Positions 5,448 through 18,615 of a stretch of 45,477 bases of DNA are shown in pieces (position 1 is the stretch's first letter; every line of letters begins with the position of its first letter). Under the pieces are notes generated by a model that did no database searches, was not told the DNA's origin, and saw nothing but the letters and a program-made list of their open reading frames with translations. The stretch lies in the NCBI GenBank assembly GCA_016930635.1, contig JAFGGI010000056.1, positions 1 through 45,477 on the forward strand, in the 5' to 3' direction. This DNA is from Sedimentisphaerales bacterium (GTDB lineage: Bacteria > Planctomycetota > Phycisphaerae > Sedimentisphaerales > UBA12454). Both the position numbers and the translations under genes were made by a program.

Positions 5448-6860
5448 ATGCAAAAAGACATTGAAGAAAAAGTATTAGCCTTTTCAAAACAGTATAATCT
5501 GTTTAAGACAGGTAAAAGGGTCTTACTGGCTGTTTCAGGCGGTGCTGATTCAGTTGCACTTGCCCAGATACTTATAAATGCAGGCAGAACAGGCAATAAT
5601 TTTCATATCGCACATATCAACCATCAACTGAGGGGTAAAAAAGCCGACGAAGATGAAAATTTTGTCAAAAGCCTTGCTCAAAAATACGACCTGCCTGTAA
5701 CAATCGAACGGATAGATGTCAGAAAATATGCAAAAGAGAATAAACTTTCCATCGAAACAGCGGGCAGAGAGCTGAGGCTTGGGAAACTTGCCCAAACAGC
5801 GAAGAAAAATAACTGCGAGAGCATAGCAACTGCTCATCATAAAAATGATAATGCCGAGACAATAATCCATCGTATATTAAGAGGAACTTCGTTTAAGGGA
5901 CTTGCAGGGATAAGGCCGAAGATGGAATTGAATGATATTACTTTTATCAGGCCCCTGCTTTGTCTGGATAGAAGCGAAATTGAGGACTATCTTGTATCAG
6001 GAAATATTAACTGGCAAACGGACCATACGAATATGGACTGTCGATTTACTCGCAATCGTATAAGACACAAACTTTTGCCGATGCTGCAAAGTCAAAGCAA
6101 AGATAATCTTATAGAATCACTTTTTGTTTTATCTCAAAAGTATCTGGCATTTTCAGAAAGAATCGAAAGCCTGGCAAAAGCAGCTCTACAAAACTGTATG
6201 ATGAATAAATCACAGGATGCAGTATCAATCGATATTGAAAAGTTCGATAATTATTCTGCTCTATTAAAAGTGGAAATTATCCAACTTGCTCTGCAACAGT
6301 GCGGCACAGGCCTGCAGAAGATGACCTCTGAGCATTATGAAAAAACCATCAATTTCACGGCAAATGGTCAAACGGGTAAAACGCTGCAGATGCCGGGTAA
6401 GGTTATTTTCAAAAAGGAGCAAAATAGCTTTAGTTTAAGCTGCTGTCAAAGTGTTGTTCAAAAGCTGGAACCGGTCAAATTGGAAATACCATCAGTGGTA
6501 TGTTTCGGAAATTTCATCATTGAAGCTCAGAAGCTGTCATCGGACAGTATTGATATTGAAAATATCGGCAAAAATAAAGATGACTATATTGAGTGGTTCG
6601 ATGCCGAGCGGGTAAAACCGCCTTTAATTGTCCGTCAGAGGCAGACGGGGGATAAATTCAAGCCATTCGGACTTGATAGTTATAAAAAAATAGGTAAATT
6701 TTTAACCTCTGCAAAGATCGAAAGCAGCCAGCGAAAAAAAGCTTTTCTTGTATGCGACAGCGAAAAGGTTCTCTGGCTTGTACCGGCAAGGCGAAGCAAT
6801 GAGGCTGTGGTGAATTGTAAAAGCAAAATGCTACTTCAGATAAAGATAACGAAGAAATAA
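5448..6860 (+). CDS. tilS: tRNA(Ile)-lysidine synthase (TilS)
   Basis: Modifies cytidine-34 of tRNA-Ile(CAU) to lysidine using ATP and lysine, letting the tRNA read AUA; essential and cytoplasmic. The N-terminal PP-loop is LLAVSGGADSVAL (SGGADS at 30-35). It is followed by HINHQLRG, ETAGRELR and the family block HHKNDNAETIIHRILRGTSF. The central helical region is about 200-370. The C-terminal substrate-binding domain (about 390-470) has RQRQTGDKFKPFGL and SSQRKKAFLVCDSEKVLWLV. At 470 residues it is a normal bacterial TilS. It begins 14 bp after the terminator T-run, and TATATT at 5433-5438 lies just upstream, so its transcript leader is very short or absent. Confidence 0.93.
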   Translation: MQKDIEEKVLAFSKQYNLFKTGKRVLLAVSGGADSVALAQILINAGRTGNNFHIAHINHQLRGKKADEDENFVKSLAQKYDLPVTIERIDVRKYAKENKLSIETAGRELRLGKLAQTAKKNNCESIATAHHKNDNAETIIHRILRGTSFKGLAGIRPKMELNDITFIRPLLCLDRSEIEDYLVSGNINWQTDHTNMDCRFTRNRIRHKLLPMLQSQSKDNLIESLFVLSQKYLAFSERIESLAKAALQNCMMNKSQDAVSIDIEKFDNYSALLKVEIIQLALQQCGTGLQKMTSEHYEKTINFTANGQTGKTLQMPGKVIFKKEQNSFSLSCCQSVVQKLEPVKLEIPSVVCFGNFIIEAQKLSSDSIDIENIGKNKDDYIEWFDAERVKPPLIVRQRQTGDKFKPFGLDSYKKIGKFLTSAKIESSQRKKAFLVCDSEKVLWLVPARRSNEAVVNCKSKMLLQIKITKK

Positions 6861-6878
6861 AACCGGGAGATAGAATTT

Positions 6879-8987
6879 ATGAATTCGACCAGAAATATTT
6901 TTAAAGCATTGATACTAATATGCCTTCTTTTTATAGCCGGCTGTTTTACTACTTCAATGCGGCAGGATATAAAGGCTATTCCCCAGACGCGAATGGATAA
7001 TATAAAAGAGCAAGTTCACGGCATTGAAATTATCGACCCTTACCGCTGGCTCGAAGATGGTCAAAGTGAAGAAACCCGCCAATGGATAGAGGCTCAAAAT
7101 AATTATTCACAACCGCTGATTGGTAATCGGCCTGACAGGACAAGGCTTAAAAAGAGGATTACCGAACTATTGAAAGTTGATTGGCAAAGTCTGCCTCAGG
7201 AAAGAAACGGGCGTTATTTTATTCGTAAGCGGTCAGGTGACCAGGAAATGGCTGTTCTCTATATGCGAGAGGGCCTCGACGGCAAGGATGTCATGCTTGT
7301 CGATCCTAATCCAATGAGTTCGGACAACACAACAAGTACGAGATTGCAAGGTGTATCAGAGGACGGCAGCCTGATGGCCTACAGCATTCGCCAGGGAGGA
7401 CAGGACGAACAGAGTATTCATTTTCTTAACGTAGATACAAAAGAAAACCTGCCGGAAGTTCTGCCGACGGCACGCTATATGAGCTTTTCCCTTAAGCCGG
7501 ACAAGAGCGGCTGTTATTATACCCGTCACGAGGCCAACGGCCCCAGAATTTATTATCACAAAATGGGAACAGAACCCGCAAGTGATATAAAAATCTTCGG
7601 CGACGGGTATGATGCCGACAAAATCGCATATACGGAATTATCCGAAGACGGCCGGCATTTGCTTATAACGGTTAGACACGGCTCAGCGGGAATGAAAATG
7701 GAGCTTTATTACCAGGACATGGTCAAGAATACTCCCATTGTACCGATCGTTAATGATATAGACGCAAAATTCTACGGAGAGATCGTAGATGAAAAGTTCT
7801 TTCTGCAGACAGACTGGAATGCACCAAACGGTAGAATTATTAGTTTCGATATCAATAATCCAGACCGCAAATACTGGAAAGAAATAGTCAGGCAAAACGA
7901 CGCTGTAATTGATTATTTCAAACTGGCAGGCGGAAAGCTCTTCATCAATTACACAAAAAATGCCAGTTCGACATTATCCGTATTCGAGGCGGACGGCAGG
8001 TATATAAAGGATATTCAGTTCCCTGCAATAGGCTCGATAGGTGATTTTGTCGGCAGATGGAAAAATAACGAGGCATTTTTCTCCTTCTCTACATATCACA
8101 TTCCGTCAAAAACATACATATATAATACAAAGACAGACACTAAGAAAATCTGGTGGGAAGCCGATATCTCGGTTCAAAGCGATACATATGATGTCAAGCA
8201 GGTCTGGTTCAAATCAAAAGACGGCACAAAGGTACCTATGTTCATCGTTCATGCCAAAGGTGTCAAACTAAATGGGAAAAATCCTACTCTTCTAACCGCC
8301 TATGGAGGTTTCGGCCATAAGGAAACTCCTTACTTTTCGGTTATGGCAACATTATGGATGGAGGCCGGGGGAGTTTACGTCATGCCTAATATCAGAGGCG
8401 GCGGAGAATTCGGTGAGAATTGGCACAAGGCGGGAATGCTCGAAAATAAACAAAATTCTTTTGATGATTTTATTGCTGCTGCGCAGTGGCTGATAGATGA
8501 AAAATATACCTCATCAGATAAAATCGTTATTGTCGGCGGCAGTAATGGCGGACTGCTTGTCGGGGCGGCCATTACACAAAGGCCTGATATGTTCCGGGCG
8601 GCAGTTTGTCTGTATCCGCTGCTTGATATGGTGCGTTATCATAAGTTTCTCGTCGCAAAGTTCTGGGCATCTGAATACGGCTGCGCTGAAGATCCACAGC
8701 AGTTCAAATATCTATATGCATATTCTCCATACCACCACGTCAAAAAAGGAGTAAAATACCCTGCCGTACTGTTCGTCACTGGCGACCGCGATACGAGGGT
8801 TGACCCGCTTCACGCAAGGAAAATGACTGCCCTGCTCCAGTCGGTCGCAACGGCTGACAGGCCCGTTTTGCTGCAATATTACACCAAGGCAGGCCATGTG
8901 GGCGGACATCCTATGAGCAGGAAAATTGAAGAGGTGGCGGATGACTTCGGTTTTATGCTGTGGCAGCTCGGAATGAGCTTCCCATAA
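6879..8987 (+). CDS. Prolyl oligopeptidase family lipoprotein (S9A)
   Basis: A serine peptidase cleaving short peptides, typically after proline. A lipoprotein signal peptide with lipobox LFIAGC (cysteine 22) suggests anchoring outside the cytoplasm. The N-terminal beta-propeller begins with the family start EIIDPYRWLEDGQSEETRQW. The C-terminal alpha/beta-hydrolase domain (about 440-702) has the nucleophile motif IVGGSNGGLL, the acid in VTGDRDTRVDP and the histidine in KAGHVGGHP, so the catalytic triad is complete. LTAYGGFG, PNIRGGGEFGENWH and SYSPYH-like (AYSPYHHV) segments also match S9A. At 702 residues it is the usual length. It follows tilS after 18 bp and may be cotranscribed with it. 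Confidence 0.92.
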   Translation: MNSTRNIFKALILICLLFIAGCFTTSMRQDIKAIPQTRMDNIKEQVHGIEIIDPYRWLEDGQSEETRQWIEAQNNYSQPLIGNRPDRTRLKKRITELLKVDWQSLPQERNGRYFIRKRSGDQEMAVLYMREGLDGKDVMLVDPNPMSSDNTTSTRLQGVSEDGSLMAYSIRQGGQDEQSIHFLNVDTKENLPEVLPTARYMSFSLKPDKSGCYYTRHEANGPRIYYHKMGTEPASDIKIFGDGYDADKIAYTELSEDGRHLLITVRHGSAGMKMELYYQDMVKNTPIVPIVNDIDAKFYGEIVDEKFFLQTDWNAPNGRIISFDINNPDRKYWKEIVRQNDAVIDYFKLAGGKLFINYTKNASSTLSVFEADGRYIKDIQFPAIGSIGDFVGRWKNNEAFFSFSTYHIPSKTYIYNTKTDTKKIWWEADISVQSDTYDVKQVWFKSKDGTKVPMFIVHAKGVKLNGKNPTLLTAYGGFGHKETPYFSVMATLWMEAGGVYVMPNIRGGGEFGENWHKAGMLENKQNSFDDFIAAAQWLIDEKYTSSDKIVIVGGSNGGLLVGAAITQRPDMFRAAVCLYPLLDMVRYHKFLVAKFWASEYGCAEDPQQFKYLYAYSPYHHVKKGVKYPAVLFVTGDRDTRVDPLHARKMTALLQSVATADRPVLLQYYTKAGHVGGHPMSRKIEEVADDFGFMLWQLGMSFP

Positions 8988-9013
8988 CGCTAAATCCGGA
9001 CAATAATTTCCCC

Positions 9014-9042
9014 TTGACAGTCTGCTGTATCGTCCATAAAAT
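9014..9042 (+). promoter_or_regulatory. Strong sigma70-type promoter of gap
   Basis: TTGACA (9014-9019), exactly 17 bp, then TAAAAT (9037-9042). The implied leader of about 75 nt contains an inverted repeat, ATCCCG (9042-9047) with CGGGAT further on, and ends in a good Shine-Dalgarno, AAAGGAG, before the ATG. Confidence 0.7.
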
Positions 9043-13769: not shown

Positions 13770-15014
13770 TCAGTACAGGACTGTGGTTTGGTCATTCTCA
13801 AGCAGTGTTGGGATATCTGTAGTATAAGCAGTTGGGCTTAGGGGATTATTTCTCACATCCAGCCAGGTAAGATTTGCCAAAGATAAGACACTTGAAATAT
13901 CGGCGATATTATTCTTATTAAAAGAAAGCGTCTCTAAATTTATCAAGCCGGCCACAGCAGTAACATCACTTATATTATTGCTGCCTACGTGTAAGAACGC
14001 CAAATCCGTCAACCCAGCCACCGGCGATATATCATTAATATAATTGCCAGCCAGATACAGGTCCGTCAGCCAGGTCAAATTCGACAGCGCCGAAAGATTC
14101 GAGATCTGGTTATAACCCAACCGCAGGAACATTAAATTACTCAGATTTGCTAACGGGCTTATGTCGTAAATTTTATTGCCGTCAAGTTCGAGGTAAACCA
14201 GGCCGGTCAAATCAGCCAAAGGCGAAATATCTCTTATCCTGTTTCTGTTGAGGCACAGGTCTGCCAGATTCGTCAGATTCGATACGCCTGAGATATCGGT
14301 CAGGCCGGAGTCGTTTAGATATAAAGATTCCAAATTTACCTGCTGGAAAACGATGGAGAAATCTTCTATATCATTATTGCCCAGTTCCAGATGCAGGAGG
14401 TCAAAGTTTGAAAGGACGGAAATATCACTTATGGGGTTATTCTGCAGGGCAAGTTCTTCCAGTACTGTCAATCCTGACAGAGGCGACAAATCGCTGACAT
14501 TGTTATAGGCCAGAAGCAATCGCCAAAGATTTGTAAGCTCTGCCAATGGCGATATGTCGCCGATTTGATTGCCGGACAGGTTCAGATGACCGAGATTTGT
14601 CATATTTGATAAGGCAGATATCTCAGTAATCTCGTTGAACATAAGCAGCAGGCTTTCGAGATTTGTCAAATCCGACAGCGCGGAGATATCAGTTATATTA
14701 TTTCCAAAGAGAACTAATACTTTCATCTCTGTAAGATAGGACAATGCTGATATATCGGTTATATTATTATCAGAGAGGTTGAGATATGTAAGGTTCTCGG
14801 CATATTCAAGGCCGGCCAGGTCGGTGATACCCTTGTTACGCGCATCAAGTCTTGTCAGGCCGAGCAAGTCTTCTGCTGCAGGATTTGAAATTCCAAGCTG
14901 CTCTTCGATGGCTGTTTGCAAATTGGGCTCGGCAAAATATACCGCATCTTGTGCAGAGGTAATACCGGATATTAGTACAATTAGAATGATCGCTAAATCG
15001 ACTGTTTTTTTCAT
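13770..15014 (-). CDS. Secreted leucine-rich-repeat protein (internalin-type)
   Basis: A signal peptide (first 22 residues, ending GITSA) and a short cap (YFAEPNLQTAIEEQLGI) are followed by about 15 leucine-rich repeats of 22 residues with the consensus LxxLxxLxLxxNxIxDISPLA. These include LTYLNLSDNNITDISALS and LVYLELDGNKIYDISPLANL. The DISxL pattern is that of internalin-like LRRs, which form a curved protein-binding surface. The C-terminus (TDIPTLLENDQTTVLY) has no obvious anchor, so the protein is probably released or periplasmic. The start is the ATG at 15014, with AGGAG seven bases upstream; a TTG lies directly before it. Its partner is unknown. Confidence 0.88.
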   Translation of the reverse strand: MKKTVDLAIILIVLISGITSAQDAVYFAEPNLQTAIEEQLGISNPAAEDLLGLTRLDARNKGITDLAGLEYAENLTYLNLSDNNITDISALSYLTEMKVLVLFGNNITDISALSDLTNLESLLLMFNEITEISALSNMTNLGHLNLSGNQIGDISPLAELTNLWRLLLAYNNVSDLSPLSGLTVLEELALQNNPISDISVLSNFDLLHLELGNNDIEDFSIVFQQVNLESLYLNDSGLTDISGVSNLTNLADLCLNRNRIRDISPLADLTGLVYLELDGNKIYDISPLANLSNLMFLRLGYNQISNLSALSNLTWLTDLYLAGNYINDISPVAGLTDLAFLHVGSNNISDVTAVAGLINLETLSFNKNNIADISSVLSLANLTWLDVRNNPLSPTAYTTDIPTLLENDQTTVLY

Positions 15015-15125
15015 CAACCTGCTCCTATTGGTTTAAAATTATAGATACAATGCTACTATACACTTTTTGGGCGAAAAATCAAGTAAAAACCGATTTGTAC
15101 AAGTAACTGCATATGTTTAAACCTG

Positions 15126-15153
15126 TTGCAATCGGCGACAAAAACGATATACT
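15126..15153 (+). promoter_or_regulatory. Candidate promoter of rpe
   Basis: TTGCAA (15126-15131), 16 bp, TATACT (15148-15153), in the 190-bp gap between the divergent LRR gene and rpe. Confidence 0.5.
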
Positions 15154-15203
15154 TGGCGTAGAAAATTGAACATTTGAAAGGCGAACAGGTGAAAGAGAAC
15201 ACG

Positions 15204-15872
15204 ATGAATAAATTACCAAAAACAGGAACGATCGAAATTGCACCGTCGATATTGAGCGCTGATTTTGCGAAGCTGGCCAGTGAAATCGCTGAAGTGGAAA
15301 GTGCAGGCGTAAAGATGCTGCATCTCGATGTGATGGACGGCCATTTTGTGCCAAACATAACTATCGGCCCCCCTGTCATTGCCAAACTCCGCAAACATTC
15401 GAAGCTGTTCTTCGACAGTCATCTTATGATAAACGAGCCGGAAAAATACGCTGATGCCTTTATAAAGGCAGGCGTTGATCATATCACCTTTCACATCGAA
15501 GTTGTGCCTGAGCCGAAAGATTTTATCAAGAGGCTGCACGATTCTGGTGTAACGGCCGGGCTGTGTCTTAATCCGGAGACGCCGGTTTCGGCGATAGAAA
15601 AATACGCATCGCTTACGGATATGATTCTTATAATGACGGTTCATCCGGGCTTCGGCGGGCAGAGCTTTATCCGCGAGGCTGCTGAGAAGATTAAACCGGT
15701 CCGTCAGATAGTCGGGCCTGATATTCGTATCGAGATCGACGGCGGCATTAATCCTGAAAACGCCGCTATCGTAGTACCGCTTGGAGCAGATACACTTGTC
15801 GCGGGTAACGCGATATTCTCAAAGCCGAACCGCAAAAAAGCAATAGAGGACATCCACAAGGCTTGCAGGTAA
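15204..15872 (+). CDS. rpe: Ribulose-phosphate 3-epimerase
   Basis: Interconverts ribulose-5-phosphate and xylulose-5-phosphate in the pentose phosphate pathway; cytoplasmic, a metal-dependent TIM barrel. Family signatures are present: IAPSILSADFAKLASEI, LHLDVMDGHFVPNITIGPPV (metal-binding His and Asp), ILIMTVHPGFGGQSF, RIEIDGGINPENA and DTLVAGNAIF. At 222 residues it is normal. The start is uncertain: the ATG at 15204 gives MNKLPKTGTIEIAPSIL. An in-frame ATG at 15174 adds ten residues (MKGEQVKENT) without a clear Shine-Dalgarno. Confidence 0.95.
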   Translation: MNKLPKTGTIEIAPSILSADFAKLASEIAEVESAGVKMLHLDVMDGHFVPNITIGPPVIAKLRKHSKLFFDSHLMINEPEKYADAFIKAGVDHITFHIEVVPEPKDFIKRLHDSGVTAGLCLNPETPVSAIEKYASLTDMILIMTVHPGFGGQSFIREAAEKIKPVRQIVGPDIRIEIDGGINPENAAIVVPLGADTLVAGNAIFSKPNRKKAIEDIHKACR

Positions 15873-16220
15873 TTTCGCACAGATTTGTAATTACTGCATA
15901 GCTTTCCCAAGCCTTATAAAAACTTATCGGACTCACCGATAACTTCCCCAGTTTTTTCATATATTTTTACGATTTATCCGTTTAGGCCTATTTCGGCCTA
16001 TTATAGGGAATATTCCGGTTATACAGCCTATGCAGGATGTATTTAAAGACAGAAACAGATTATGCCTTAAGAAAACAAGTTATACGAGAAGTTCTGGTGG
16101 ACGATGGCCCTATATAAAGCCCAGGAAAGACTAAACCGTATTTTTCTGCTGGCTATATTATAGAGGTATATTGCAAAAAACAGGCTAATAAGGAAAACTT
16201 AAATTTTGGGAGATATAAAA
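15873..16220. other. 348-bp intergenic region before the FtsZ-like gene
   Basis: No gene is supported. It holds a short inverted repeat around TAGGCCTATTTCGGCCTA (about 15985-16002), several TATA-like words (CTATATTATAG near 16153) and, at the end, a good Shine-Dalgarno, GGGAG, before the ATG at 16221. Its length compared with the tightly packed neighbours suggests that the FtsZ-like gene has its own regulated promoter, but no consensus -35/-10 pair stands out. Confidence 0.4.
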
Positions 16221-17570
16221 ATGGCAAAAAGATCAACAAAAAACGGAAAACGGACGAGGTCAAGAAGGTCTACTGCTGTGAAAGCCAGGTCGACTTCAAG
16301 GGCAAAAGCAAAATCAAGGACCAGGACGACTTCAAAGGCAAGATCAACCTCAAGGACAAGAACAGCTAAAAGGACCACGAGGAGCACTGTTCAGAGGCGT
16401 AGCACTGTAAGTGCAAAAACTACCTCTCGTGCACACCTGCTGCCAACGTTAGAACTCGAACAGTATGAAGCCAATATTGAGCCCGAGGTAGGCGTCAGGG
16501 ACTTTATCCAGGGCTCTACCCGCTATGCATGGCTCGGAGCCGGTCAATGCGGCGGCAGATTGGTCAAGTCATTCTGGGACCTGGGCTACAAGAAGGTATT
16601 GGCTGTAAACACCACACATCATGATTTAGACCTGCTCGATATCCCTCAGGACCAGAAGTTCCTCATGGACATAGGAGCAAAGGGTGCCGGCAAGGATGTG
16701 GAAAGAGGCAAACACGCTGTCCAGCAGTACCAGCAGGAAATTCTGCACTTAGCCAGACAGACATTCGGTACTCAGATCGACCACATTATGGTCTGCTTCG
16801 GAGCAGGCGGCGGCACAGGCGGCGGCAGCGCAACAGGACTGATCGAGATCGCAAAGAGATATGCCAGATATATTGGCCTAGCCGAACCGAACAAAAGAGT
16901 GGGCGTGGTTATGACCCTGCCGACTGTGGGCGAAGCCAGTTCTCCACTCGTAGCAGAAAATGCACACAAGATAGCCAGCGAATTAAGCCAACTGGCAAGT
17001 GACGGACAGATATCACCGCTCATCATCGTGGATAATGAAAAGATCAACAAGCTGTATCCAGGGATGACGGTAAAATCCTTCTGGCCGAACATTAACAGCA
17101 CTGTAGCAGGTCTGTTCGACATCTTTAACAGAGTCAGCGCTCTCAGCAGCGGGTACACTTCTTTTGATCCTGTGGATTATCACAGCATTATGGAAGCCGG
17201 CAGCTGCGCGATAATGGGCTTGACAAAAGTTGAAGAATTCAAGGACAAGTTTGCCATATCTCAGGCCGTCAAGAGGAACCTGGAGAAGACATTATTGGCA
17301 AGCGGATTCAATTTATCCACTGCTAAAGTGGCCGGGTGCATCGTCGTGGGCGGCAGGAAGTTAATGGCAGAAGTCAAGGGTCTGCAGGACAATATCAATT
17401 ACGCCTTTGACGTCTTGTCAGAGATAACAGGCCAGGCAACAATCCATCGTGGAATTTATGAAGATGAGAAGAATTCCATAAGGGTTTACACCATTATTGG
17501 TGGATTGAATGCTCCAACTCAAAGGCTTGAAGAGCTTCTGAGCTGCGGCGCTGTTTGCTGTGTTGCTTAA
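16221..17570 (+). CDS. Non-canonical FtsZ/tubulin-family GTPase with a long basic N-terminal tail
   Basis: A tubulin/FtsZ-type GTPase domain (about 100-449) has the T1 loop WLGAGQCGGR (104-113), VNTTHHDLDLLD (129-140), the T2/T3-like IGAKGAGKDVERG (151-163) and the tubulin signature FGAGGGTGGGSATG (193-206). The cofactor loop T7 reads SFDPVDYHSIM (314-324), where E. coli FtsZ has NVDFADVRTVM: both Asp are kept but Asn207 is Ser. Before it is a tail (1-72) of Arg, Lys, Ser, Thr and Ala with 26 basic and no acidic residues and a repeated KARSTSR (21-27, 39-45), like histone-H1-type tails. The protein stops at SCGAVCCVA with no FtsZ C-terminal peptide. GGGAG sets the start. Polymerisation, GTPase activity and any DNA or envelope binding are inference. 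Confidence 0.85.
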   Translation: MAKRSTKNGKRTRSRRSTAVKARSTSRAKAKSRTRTTSKARSTSRTRTAKRTTRSTVQRRSTVSAKTTSRAHLLPTLELEQYEANIEPEVGVRDFIQGSTRYAWLGAGQCGGRLVKSFWDLGYKKVLAVNTTHHDLDLLDIPQDQKFLMDIGAKGAGKDVERGKHAVQQYQQEILHLARQTFGTQIDHIMVCFGAGGGTGGGSATGLIEIAKRYARYIGLAEPNKRVGVVMTLPTVGEASSPLVAENAHKIASELSQLASDGQISPLIIVDNEKINKLYPGMTVKSFWPNINSTVAGLFDIFNRVSALSSGYTSFDPVDYHSIMEAGSCAIMGLTKVEEFKDKFAISQAVKRNLEKTLLASGFNLSTAKVAGCIVVGGRKLMAEVKGLQDNINYAFDVLSEITGQATIHRGIYEDEKNSIRVYTIIGGLNAPTQRLEELLSCGAVCCVA

Positions 17571-17600
17571 AATCTATAGACAACAACTGTAAATTATAAT

Positions 17601-17645
17601 ATTCGCCGGACGTGTTGTTAGCGACATGTCCGGCGAATTAGTTTT
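17601..17645 (+). terminator. Intrinsic terminator after the FtsZ-like gene
   Basis: ATTCGCCGGACGTG (17601-17614) pairs with CATGTCCGGCGAAT (17625-17638) over 14 bp with one G-U pair, followed by TAGTTTT. The stem is long; the T-run is short and slightly displaced. Confidence 0.7.
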
Positions 17646-17727
17646 ATCTCCAAATAGCTTCCTAATAATCCCACTGCCCTGTCTAATAGGCCTTTAAAAA
17701 AAACTCGCCTTAAATATTAACTTCTGG

Positions 17728-17733
17728 TATAAT
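17728..17733 (+). promoter_or_regulatory. -10 element upstream of accD
   Basis: A perfect TATAAT preceded by TGG, 15 bp before the accD ATG. No convincing -35 is seen at the correct distance. The implied leader is under 10 nt and no Shine-Dalgarno is present. Confidence 0.4.
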
Positions 17734-17748
17734 CAGTGCACTTCATTT

Positions 17749-18615
17749 ATGAGCACGATGAAAAAAATGGCAAAGCAGTCAAAATCACAATGGGACGGCT
17801 ACAGTTTAAAGCCTCGCAAAGAAATGCCGGAAGGCTTGTGGCTCAAGTGCCCCGGCTGCGCTAAAACTATCTTCCAAAAGGCCGTTGCTGAGAATATGCA
17901 CGTCTGTCCGGAATGCGGTCATCATTTCCGTATCGGGGCTAAGGAGAGGATTCAATATCTGGTTGACGAAGGCTCGTTCGAGCAGATATTAAGCGAACTG
18001 GTCACGTCGGACCCGCTGGATTTTAAGTTTCGGGACACTTCATATAAAGAAAGGGCAAAAAGCGCTGAAAAGGGCGCAGCAGGCAAAGAGGCAATGCTGG
18101 CCGGTAAGGCGTTTATAAAGGGCAGAGGTATAATGCTGGCCGTGATGGACTTTAACTACCTGGGCGGTTCAATGGGAGCGGTTGTTGGCGAAAAGCTGAG
18201 CACTACTATTGAAAAGGCGATGGAGGATTCACTGCCTTTGGTGGTGATAAGCTCAAGCGGCGGAGCAAGGATGCATGAAGGCGTTCTGTCCCTGGGCCAG
18301 ATGGCTAAGACTAGTGCGGCACTGGCCAAATTTGACGATAACGGCGGGCTTTTCATATCAATCCTGACGGATCCGACTACCGGGGGTGTAACGGCGAGCT
18401 TTGCAATGCTGGGCGATGTCATAATAGCCGAGCCTGGAGCATTGATAGGCTTTGCAGGGCCTCGGACGATTTACGAGACAATTAAGGTTGAGCTGCCGGA
18501 GGGTTTCCAGCGTGCTGAATTTCTGCTGGAACACGGCTTTATCGATATGATAGTGAAACGTAAGGACTTAAGAAGCGAAATCGCCAGGCTTATCGATTAC
18601 TGCGGCAAACACTGA
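17749..18615 (+). CDS. accD: Acetyl-CoA carboxylase carboxyltransferase subunit beta
   Basis: With AccA it transfers CO2 from carboxybiotin to acetyl-CoA, giving malonyl-CoA for fatty-acid synthesis; cytoplasmic. The N-terminal zinc ribbon is present: CPGC (Cys34, Cys37) and CPEC (Cys53, Cys56). A carboxyltransferase domain of the crotonase fold follows, with MDFNYLGGSMGAVVGEK, VVISSSGGARMHEG, SILTDPTTGGVTASFAMLGD and IGFAGPRTIYETI. At 288 residues it is normal. accA is not in the window. It heads a long plus-strand gene run that continues with hisC. The ATG at 17749 is the first; another at 17758 is possible. Confidence 0.96.
   Translation: MSTMKKMAKQSKSQWDGYSLKPRKEMPEGLWLKCPGCAKTIFQKAVAENMHVCPECGHHFRIGAKERIQYLVDEGSFEQILSELVTSDPLDFKFRDTSYKERAKSAEKGAAGKEAMLAGKAFIKGRGIMLAVMDFNYLGGSMGAVVGEKLSTTIEKAMEDSLPLVVISSSGGARMHEGVLSLGQMAKTSAALAKFDDNGGLFISILTDPTTGGVTASFAMLGDVIIAEPGALIGFAGPRTIYETIKVELPEGFQRAEFLLEHGFIDMIVKRKDLRSEIARLIDYCGKH

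Follow-up and report, generated by a model that had tools for sequence, protein, structure and literature searches.

A TubZ-like, phage-related tubulin with a histone-H1-like N-terminal tail in a Sedimentisphaerales bacterium

The window, that is, the whole stretch of DNA analysed (45,477 nucleotides; contig JAFGGI010000056.1 of a Sedimentisphaerales bacterium), carries between rpe and accD an open reading frame with an ATG start (16221–17570, plus strand) that codes for a 449-aa protein, the sole tubulin-superfamily match in this genome. A 348-bp gap lies upstream and a terminator-like hairpin downstream, in keeping with the long upstream region, own terminator and position outside any division cluster claimed by the earlier sequence-only reading; that the gene stands alone is true of this genome, but several relatives have a tandem second tubulin. 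The upstream gap was searched for centromere-like repeats and yielded just one 10-bp direct-repeat pair, and an Rfam search of 15000–18500 gave no match. Misbinning of the contig is ruled out, its accD matching those of members of its own family at 75–85% identity along most of the gene. Elsewhere in the window, inspection by eye found three adjoining ORFs with dockerin-like repeats (GRVDTVDLG...LKSHWF) at 26–2304, and a leucine-rich-repeat protein encoded next to rpe (13770–15017, minus strand). The features of the tubulin gene, and of the second tubulins discussed below, are listed in Table 1.

Table 1. Features of the window tubulin gene and of second tubulin genes in relatives.
Locus	Feature	Position	Strand	Basis
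Window	Ribosome-binding site and spacer (GGGAGATATAAAA) ahead of the ATG	16208..16220	+	Alignment with L002, L003, L020, L025
Window	Histone-H1-like N-terminal tail, residues 1–72, net charge +26, predicted disordered	16221..16436	+	Composition, dN/dS, pLDDT
Window	36-bp tandem repeat (2 copies, 83%) inside the tail, coding both KARSTSR repeats	16285..16357	+	TRF
Window	Conserved linker LLPTLELEQYEA...GSTRYA joining tail to GTPase core	16437..16529	+	Alignments
Window	Tubulin/FtsZ GTPase domain PF00091 with GAGGGTGGGSA	16530..17057	+	Pfam, E 4e-12, 47 bits (cut-off 33)
Window	C-terminal domain, weakly TubZ-like_C (PF22453)	17133..17516	+	Pfam
Window	T7-loop aspartates D316 and D319 (DPVD)	17166..17177	+	Alignments
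Window	Likely intrinsic terminator, hairpin then T-rich stretch	17601..17638	+	15-nt inverted repeat, 93% complementary
L005	Second tubulin, C-terminal AAA_lid_14 fusion	7233-9026
L007	Second tubulin, C-terminal AAA_lid_14 fusion	6708-8285
L011	Second tubulin, C-terminal AAA_lid_14 fusion	7219-8919
L174	Second tubulin, C-terminal AAA_lid_14 fusion	1-861

The core of the protein begins at about residue 73, and AlphaFold (30-sequence alignment) models most of residues 90–440 with a pLDDT above 90. From the letters alone it had been taken for a complete core of FtsZ type; the PF00091 match and the AlphaFold model bear out its completeness, and the assignment to FtsZ is not supported. The curated FtsZ model (NCBIfam TIGR00065) is not passed (52.1 bits against a cut-off of 295.2), and neither is the Tubulin_2 model PF13809 (18.3 bits, cut-off 27), which sets the protein apart from the FtsZ-like Tubulin_2 proteins with a kinase domain described in the same phylum and superfamily (PMC9871819). 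A PDB search with the single sequence ranked an archaeal FtsZ first; with a 30-sequence profile the best solved relative was B. cereus TubZ/RepX (4ei7, E 1.4e-16), above an entry named FtsZ (4b46, 2e-10), c-st TubZ (4e-10) and M. jannaschii FtsZ (2e-6), and the top 21 Foldseek matches were all TubZ. PF22453 scores 18.2 bits in the window protein, below the cut-off of 26, and 26.5 bits, above it, in the relative L005. By the profile and fold rankings and the missed FtsZ cut-off, the core is TubZ-like rather than FtsZ-like, although superfamily, GTPase core and T7 aspartates are common to it and FtsZ; D316 and D319 are invariant in 30 family members, and also in a set that includes phage homologues. 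Neither a C-terminal linker nor an FtsA/ZipA-type peptide is present, the protein ending shortly past the fold's final helix (...RLEELLSCGAVCCVA), and neither sequence nor AlphaFold model contains a C-terminal tail of the kind that contacts the TubR–centromere complex.

Plasmid TubZ depends on TubR, a distinct adaptor that is bound to centromere DNA. Among known systems TubZ (type III partition, TubRZ/TubY; Bacillus and Clostridium plasmids, phage c-st) is the closest by profile and fold, with T7 aspartates and GTPase core in common and the GGGTG motif kept, and the TubZ plasmid proteins found are about 24% identical to the window protein. The window gene, however, is chromosomal and sits between housekeeping genes rather than on a plasmid or plasmid-like phage, with no recognised TubR or TubY gene and no centromere-like repeats beside it; in the four plasmid regions read a small ORF lies just upstream of tubZ, whereas the neighbours here are rpe and accD. 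Plasmid TubZ is reported to have C-terminal tails with basic clusters, and some Clostridia to carry a chromosomal TubZ without TubR (PMC7762940). In place of a C-terminal tail the window protein has a long basic N-terminal one.

This tail (residues 1–72) contains 9 Lys and 17 Arg, 52.8% Ser/Thr/Ala, no Asp or Glu and almost no hydrophobic residues, which reproduces the composition first noticed (26 Arg/Lys, no acidic residue, a repeated KARSTSR). In the AlphaFold model from the 30-sequence alignment residues 1–77 have a pLDDT mostly below 50, and the tail has no helix. A composition test, its criteria chosen with this tail in view (18 or more Lys/Arg, no more than 3 Asp/Glu and 20 or more Ser/Thr/Ala/Pro within 60 residues), was run on the 349 stop-to-stop ORFs that reach 200 aa in a 510-kb sample, about a fifth of this genome; the tail was the sole segment to pass, and no general habit of basic tails was seen within the 510 kb scanned.

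It is barely conceivable that the start was misassigned and that the protein does not include the tail. The L005–L007 proteins do begin with MAQ or MSQ just ahead of the core, but tails are present in almost every other type-A copy whose start was read, and the start is conserved among relatives: the ATG is common to all seven aligned rows (window gene and relatives), the ribosome site is kept and the MAKR N-terminus is conserved. In addition, dN/dS is below 1. In the close pairs among L028/L029/L030 and L002/L003 it is 0.25–0.42 in the tail against 0.02–0.09 in the core, in alignments made at the protein level and so silent on frame-shifting indels; the tail is therefore translated, under relaxed constraint. 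The same evidence rules out a chance ORF and upholds the claim of a genuine H1-like N-terminal extension.

Each of 118 genomes of the order was searched with PF00091, and no canonical FtsZ was found, as had been expected of a planctomycete lineage. Matches occur in 22 genomes, every one of which also holds this tubulin family, and 96 have none; the tubulin protein itself matches 23 of the 118 (about 80% lack it). Across 343 genomes of the phylum there were six matches, four from this order and two distant, and the family is confined to the one order. Within the order the distribution is patchy: 12 other genomes of the window's own taxonomic family lack the gene, while several relatives carry two or three copies. 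The rpe–tubulin–accD order is kept in L003/L015 and L020, and tubulin–accD in L025; in L090, a relative from the same family, rpe adjoins accD with nothing between. The shared gene order together with this empty site fits vertical descent with loss, and recent transfer of the tubulin gene alone is disfavoured, the order being common to different families. The core is 86% identical to that of L003, as against 65–76% for the neighbouring enzymes, and core dN/dS values run from 0.02 to 0.12.

A tubulin so well conserved, and the only one in its genome, might be thought to replace FtsZ and drive cell division, the more so as Phycisphaerae are held to divide in a binary-fission-like manner without FtsZ (PMC6952346). 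We consider this quite unlikely, given the 96 of 118 genomes without PF00091 (12 of the same family included), the missing C-terminal FtsA/ZipA-type peptide, the location outside a division cluster and the two or three copies in several relatives; nor does any FtsA match exceed the cut-off in this genome (G000). With most of the order lacking the gene and FtsA not over cut-off, the tubulin is probably not a division ring. Chromosome segregation has no obvious need of the tubulin: each of the 66 high-quality genomes of the order, among them the present one, has ParB, so that a role as substitute for ParABS is unsupported and any part of the tubulin in segregation would be accessory at most.

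Outside this bacterial clade, the closest kin are encoded by phage contigs. An IMG/VR search returned 46 loci, the best of them 45–52% identical over the core, and gp138 of Bacillus phage G is 28% identical. PhuZ is the studied example of a large-phage tubulin; the kinship described here is read from the IMG/VR contigs and phage G. A short LPTLDIED-type N-terminal motif is common to several phage proteins and the window family: the counterpart of our linker (LPTLDIEDFD-like) forms the very N-terminus of several phage homologues. No long basic tail was seen in the phage homologues whose N-termini were read, and the tail is thus specific to the bacterial lineage. L098/L099 have phage genes for a head protease, PhoH and an endolysin near the tubulin gene, whereas the bacterial genes keep their housekeeping synteny, with no recognised prophage around them. 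In a 57-row tree the bacterial clade (support 100/99.9) stands beside phage lineages. Phage-to-cell transfer of the gene is favoured by this arrangement but not proven, because a single viral clade is not rejected (p 0.225). As observations in their own right, loci L097–L125 are phage contigs coding for close relatives of up to 52% identity, and in L098 the tubulin gene lies near those for a head maturation protease and a PhoH-like protein.

Such kinship also admits a captured phage tubulin turned against phages, for example one that spoils the filaments of large phages by joining them. The patchy distribution and the repeated duplication, with one decayed paralogue, would suit this; the very slow evolution of the core and an rpe/accD site conserved across families are unlike typical defence genes, and the window protein has no PADLOC match. 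We rate a defence role as very unlikely.

Tails vary widely among relatives, in line with the survey of their conservation that had been proposed. Type-A copies read over their start have tails of about 47 to 270 aa (those of L024, L027 and L032, roughly 70–110 aa, were measured by eye), and absence of the tail, which would have counted against the initial reading, is seen only in four near-tailless copies and not in the family at large: L005–L007 (3 aa) and L018 (18 aa). Each of the four has, or probably has, a second tubulin next to it. Downstream in L005 and L007 this second tubulin is fused to AAA_lid_14, the lid of sigma54 activators, and joins it without a recognised AAA+ ATPase core; HTH_8, a Fis-type HTH, is over the cut-off in L007 and L174. 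For the second tubulins of L005 and L011 Pfam scored the lid only, and the end of the L005 protein has a PADLOC RtcR/PspF2 match; the AlphaFold model of the L005 protein has the lid mostly below 50 in confidence, and the fusion is therefore called from the Pfam and PADLOC matches. L006 stops at a contig edge; a second contig from that genome has at its own edge L174, a piece of a partner gene in which lid and HTH_8 are both present, and we infer that the two are paired across the gap. The partner tubulin of L018 is interrupted by masked bases. In three near-tailless genomes (L005, L007 and G064) the partner is a lid-fused tubulin; L011 combines a 47-aa tail with a lid-fused partner, and G064 and G079 retain a tailed copy as well. 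This pattern, drawn from two or three independent events, suggests but does not prove that tail and HTH are alternative DNA contacts.

By its composition the tail would be a polyanion binder, with DNA the most likely ligand. It resembles the long, repetitive, disordered Lys/Arg/Ala/Ser/Thr tails, likewise of variable length, of AlgP/PhaF and of Chlamydia Hc2, which bind DNA (PMC9239181 and PMC2848022, respectively), although those are C-terminal or stand-alone and this one is N-terminal on a tubulin. TubY supplies a further precedent, as do the HTH domains of the partner tubulins. RNA, polyphosphate or an acidic membrane may equally be bound, and the evidence, being indirect, leans to DNA. AlgP, itself histone H1-like, is needed for evenly spaced polyphosphate granules (PMC9239181), and the tubulin might likewise position or organise another polyanionic body, be it polyphosphate or storage granules, RNA or ribosomes. 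This seems unlikely to us: the presumed role of AlgP and PhaF is likewise to tether cargo to DNA, no conserved neighbouring granule-related gene was recognised, and the HTH domains of the second tubulin point to DNA. Anchorage of the filament on acidic membrane has its parallel in the Lys-cluster tail of TubY, which binds both DNA and membrane in the TubZ partition system (PMC7762940). That tail is an amphipathic helix, however, whereas the tails here are almost without hydrophobic residues and AlphaFold gives the window tail no helix; a membrane anchor is accordingly improbable.

We therefore give about even chances to a chromosomal, phage-related TubZ-class filament with its own DNA tether, acting as an accessory, DNA-linked cytoskeletal element. 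The fold class, the translated tail specific to the bacterial clade and the strongly constrained core are observed; filament formation, GTP hydrolysis, DNA binding and the cellular role we infer. As expected by homology, the TubZ-class GTPase would form GTP-dependent filaments; the disordered H1-like tail would bind DNA without sequence specificity and tie the filament to the nucleoid or other DNA with no separate adaptor; and the filament would position, organise or move DNA rather than build a division ring. Held more tentatively is the fuller account, in which a phage tubulin captured by a planctomycete chromosome grips the DNA of the cell by its tail and, in some relatives, by an HTH-fused second tubulin.

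No published description of a tailed or lid-fused tubulin was found in the literature searched, which covered few subscription journals. Planctomycetes are described as being without FtsZ, and the conserved tubulin-class protein that some members of this order carry is a defined target. Should the tail bind DNA, the tubulin filament would bring its own DNA tether in place of the separate adaptor of plasmid TubZ, giving a cytoskeletal element linked to DNA in bacteria presumed to lack filaments of this kind; tubulins fused to the end of a sigma54 activator would then solve the problem in a second way. Given its kinship with phage tubulins, the gene may also exemplify the takeover of a viral cytoskeleton gene by a cell.

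Several other genes came to light among the relatives. L010 (JAGLHE010000168.1) comes from a record labelled Omnitrophota, and its tubulin falls inside the planctomycete clade, by transfer or through a misbinned contig. In L081 (G011:C57), a paralogue of genus g15, the GGGTG motif region reads CLSEEEPEGAALF, and this is probably a decayed, non-GTPase tubulin. L077 (G299:C45; family f18) encodes a distant tubulin-like protein with an N-terminus that looks FHA-like by eye. Three genomes share a conserved gene (57–70%; L177:3551-4216, L176:5590-6255 and L173:2-499) immediately upstream of the tubulin; its only matches are weak ones to GAF that fall below the cut-off.
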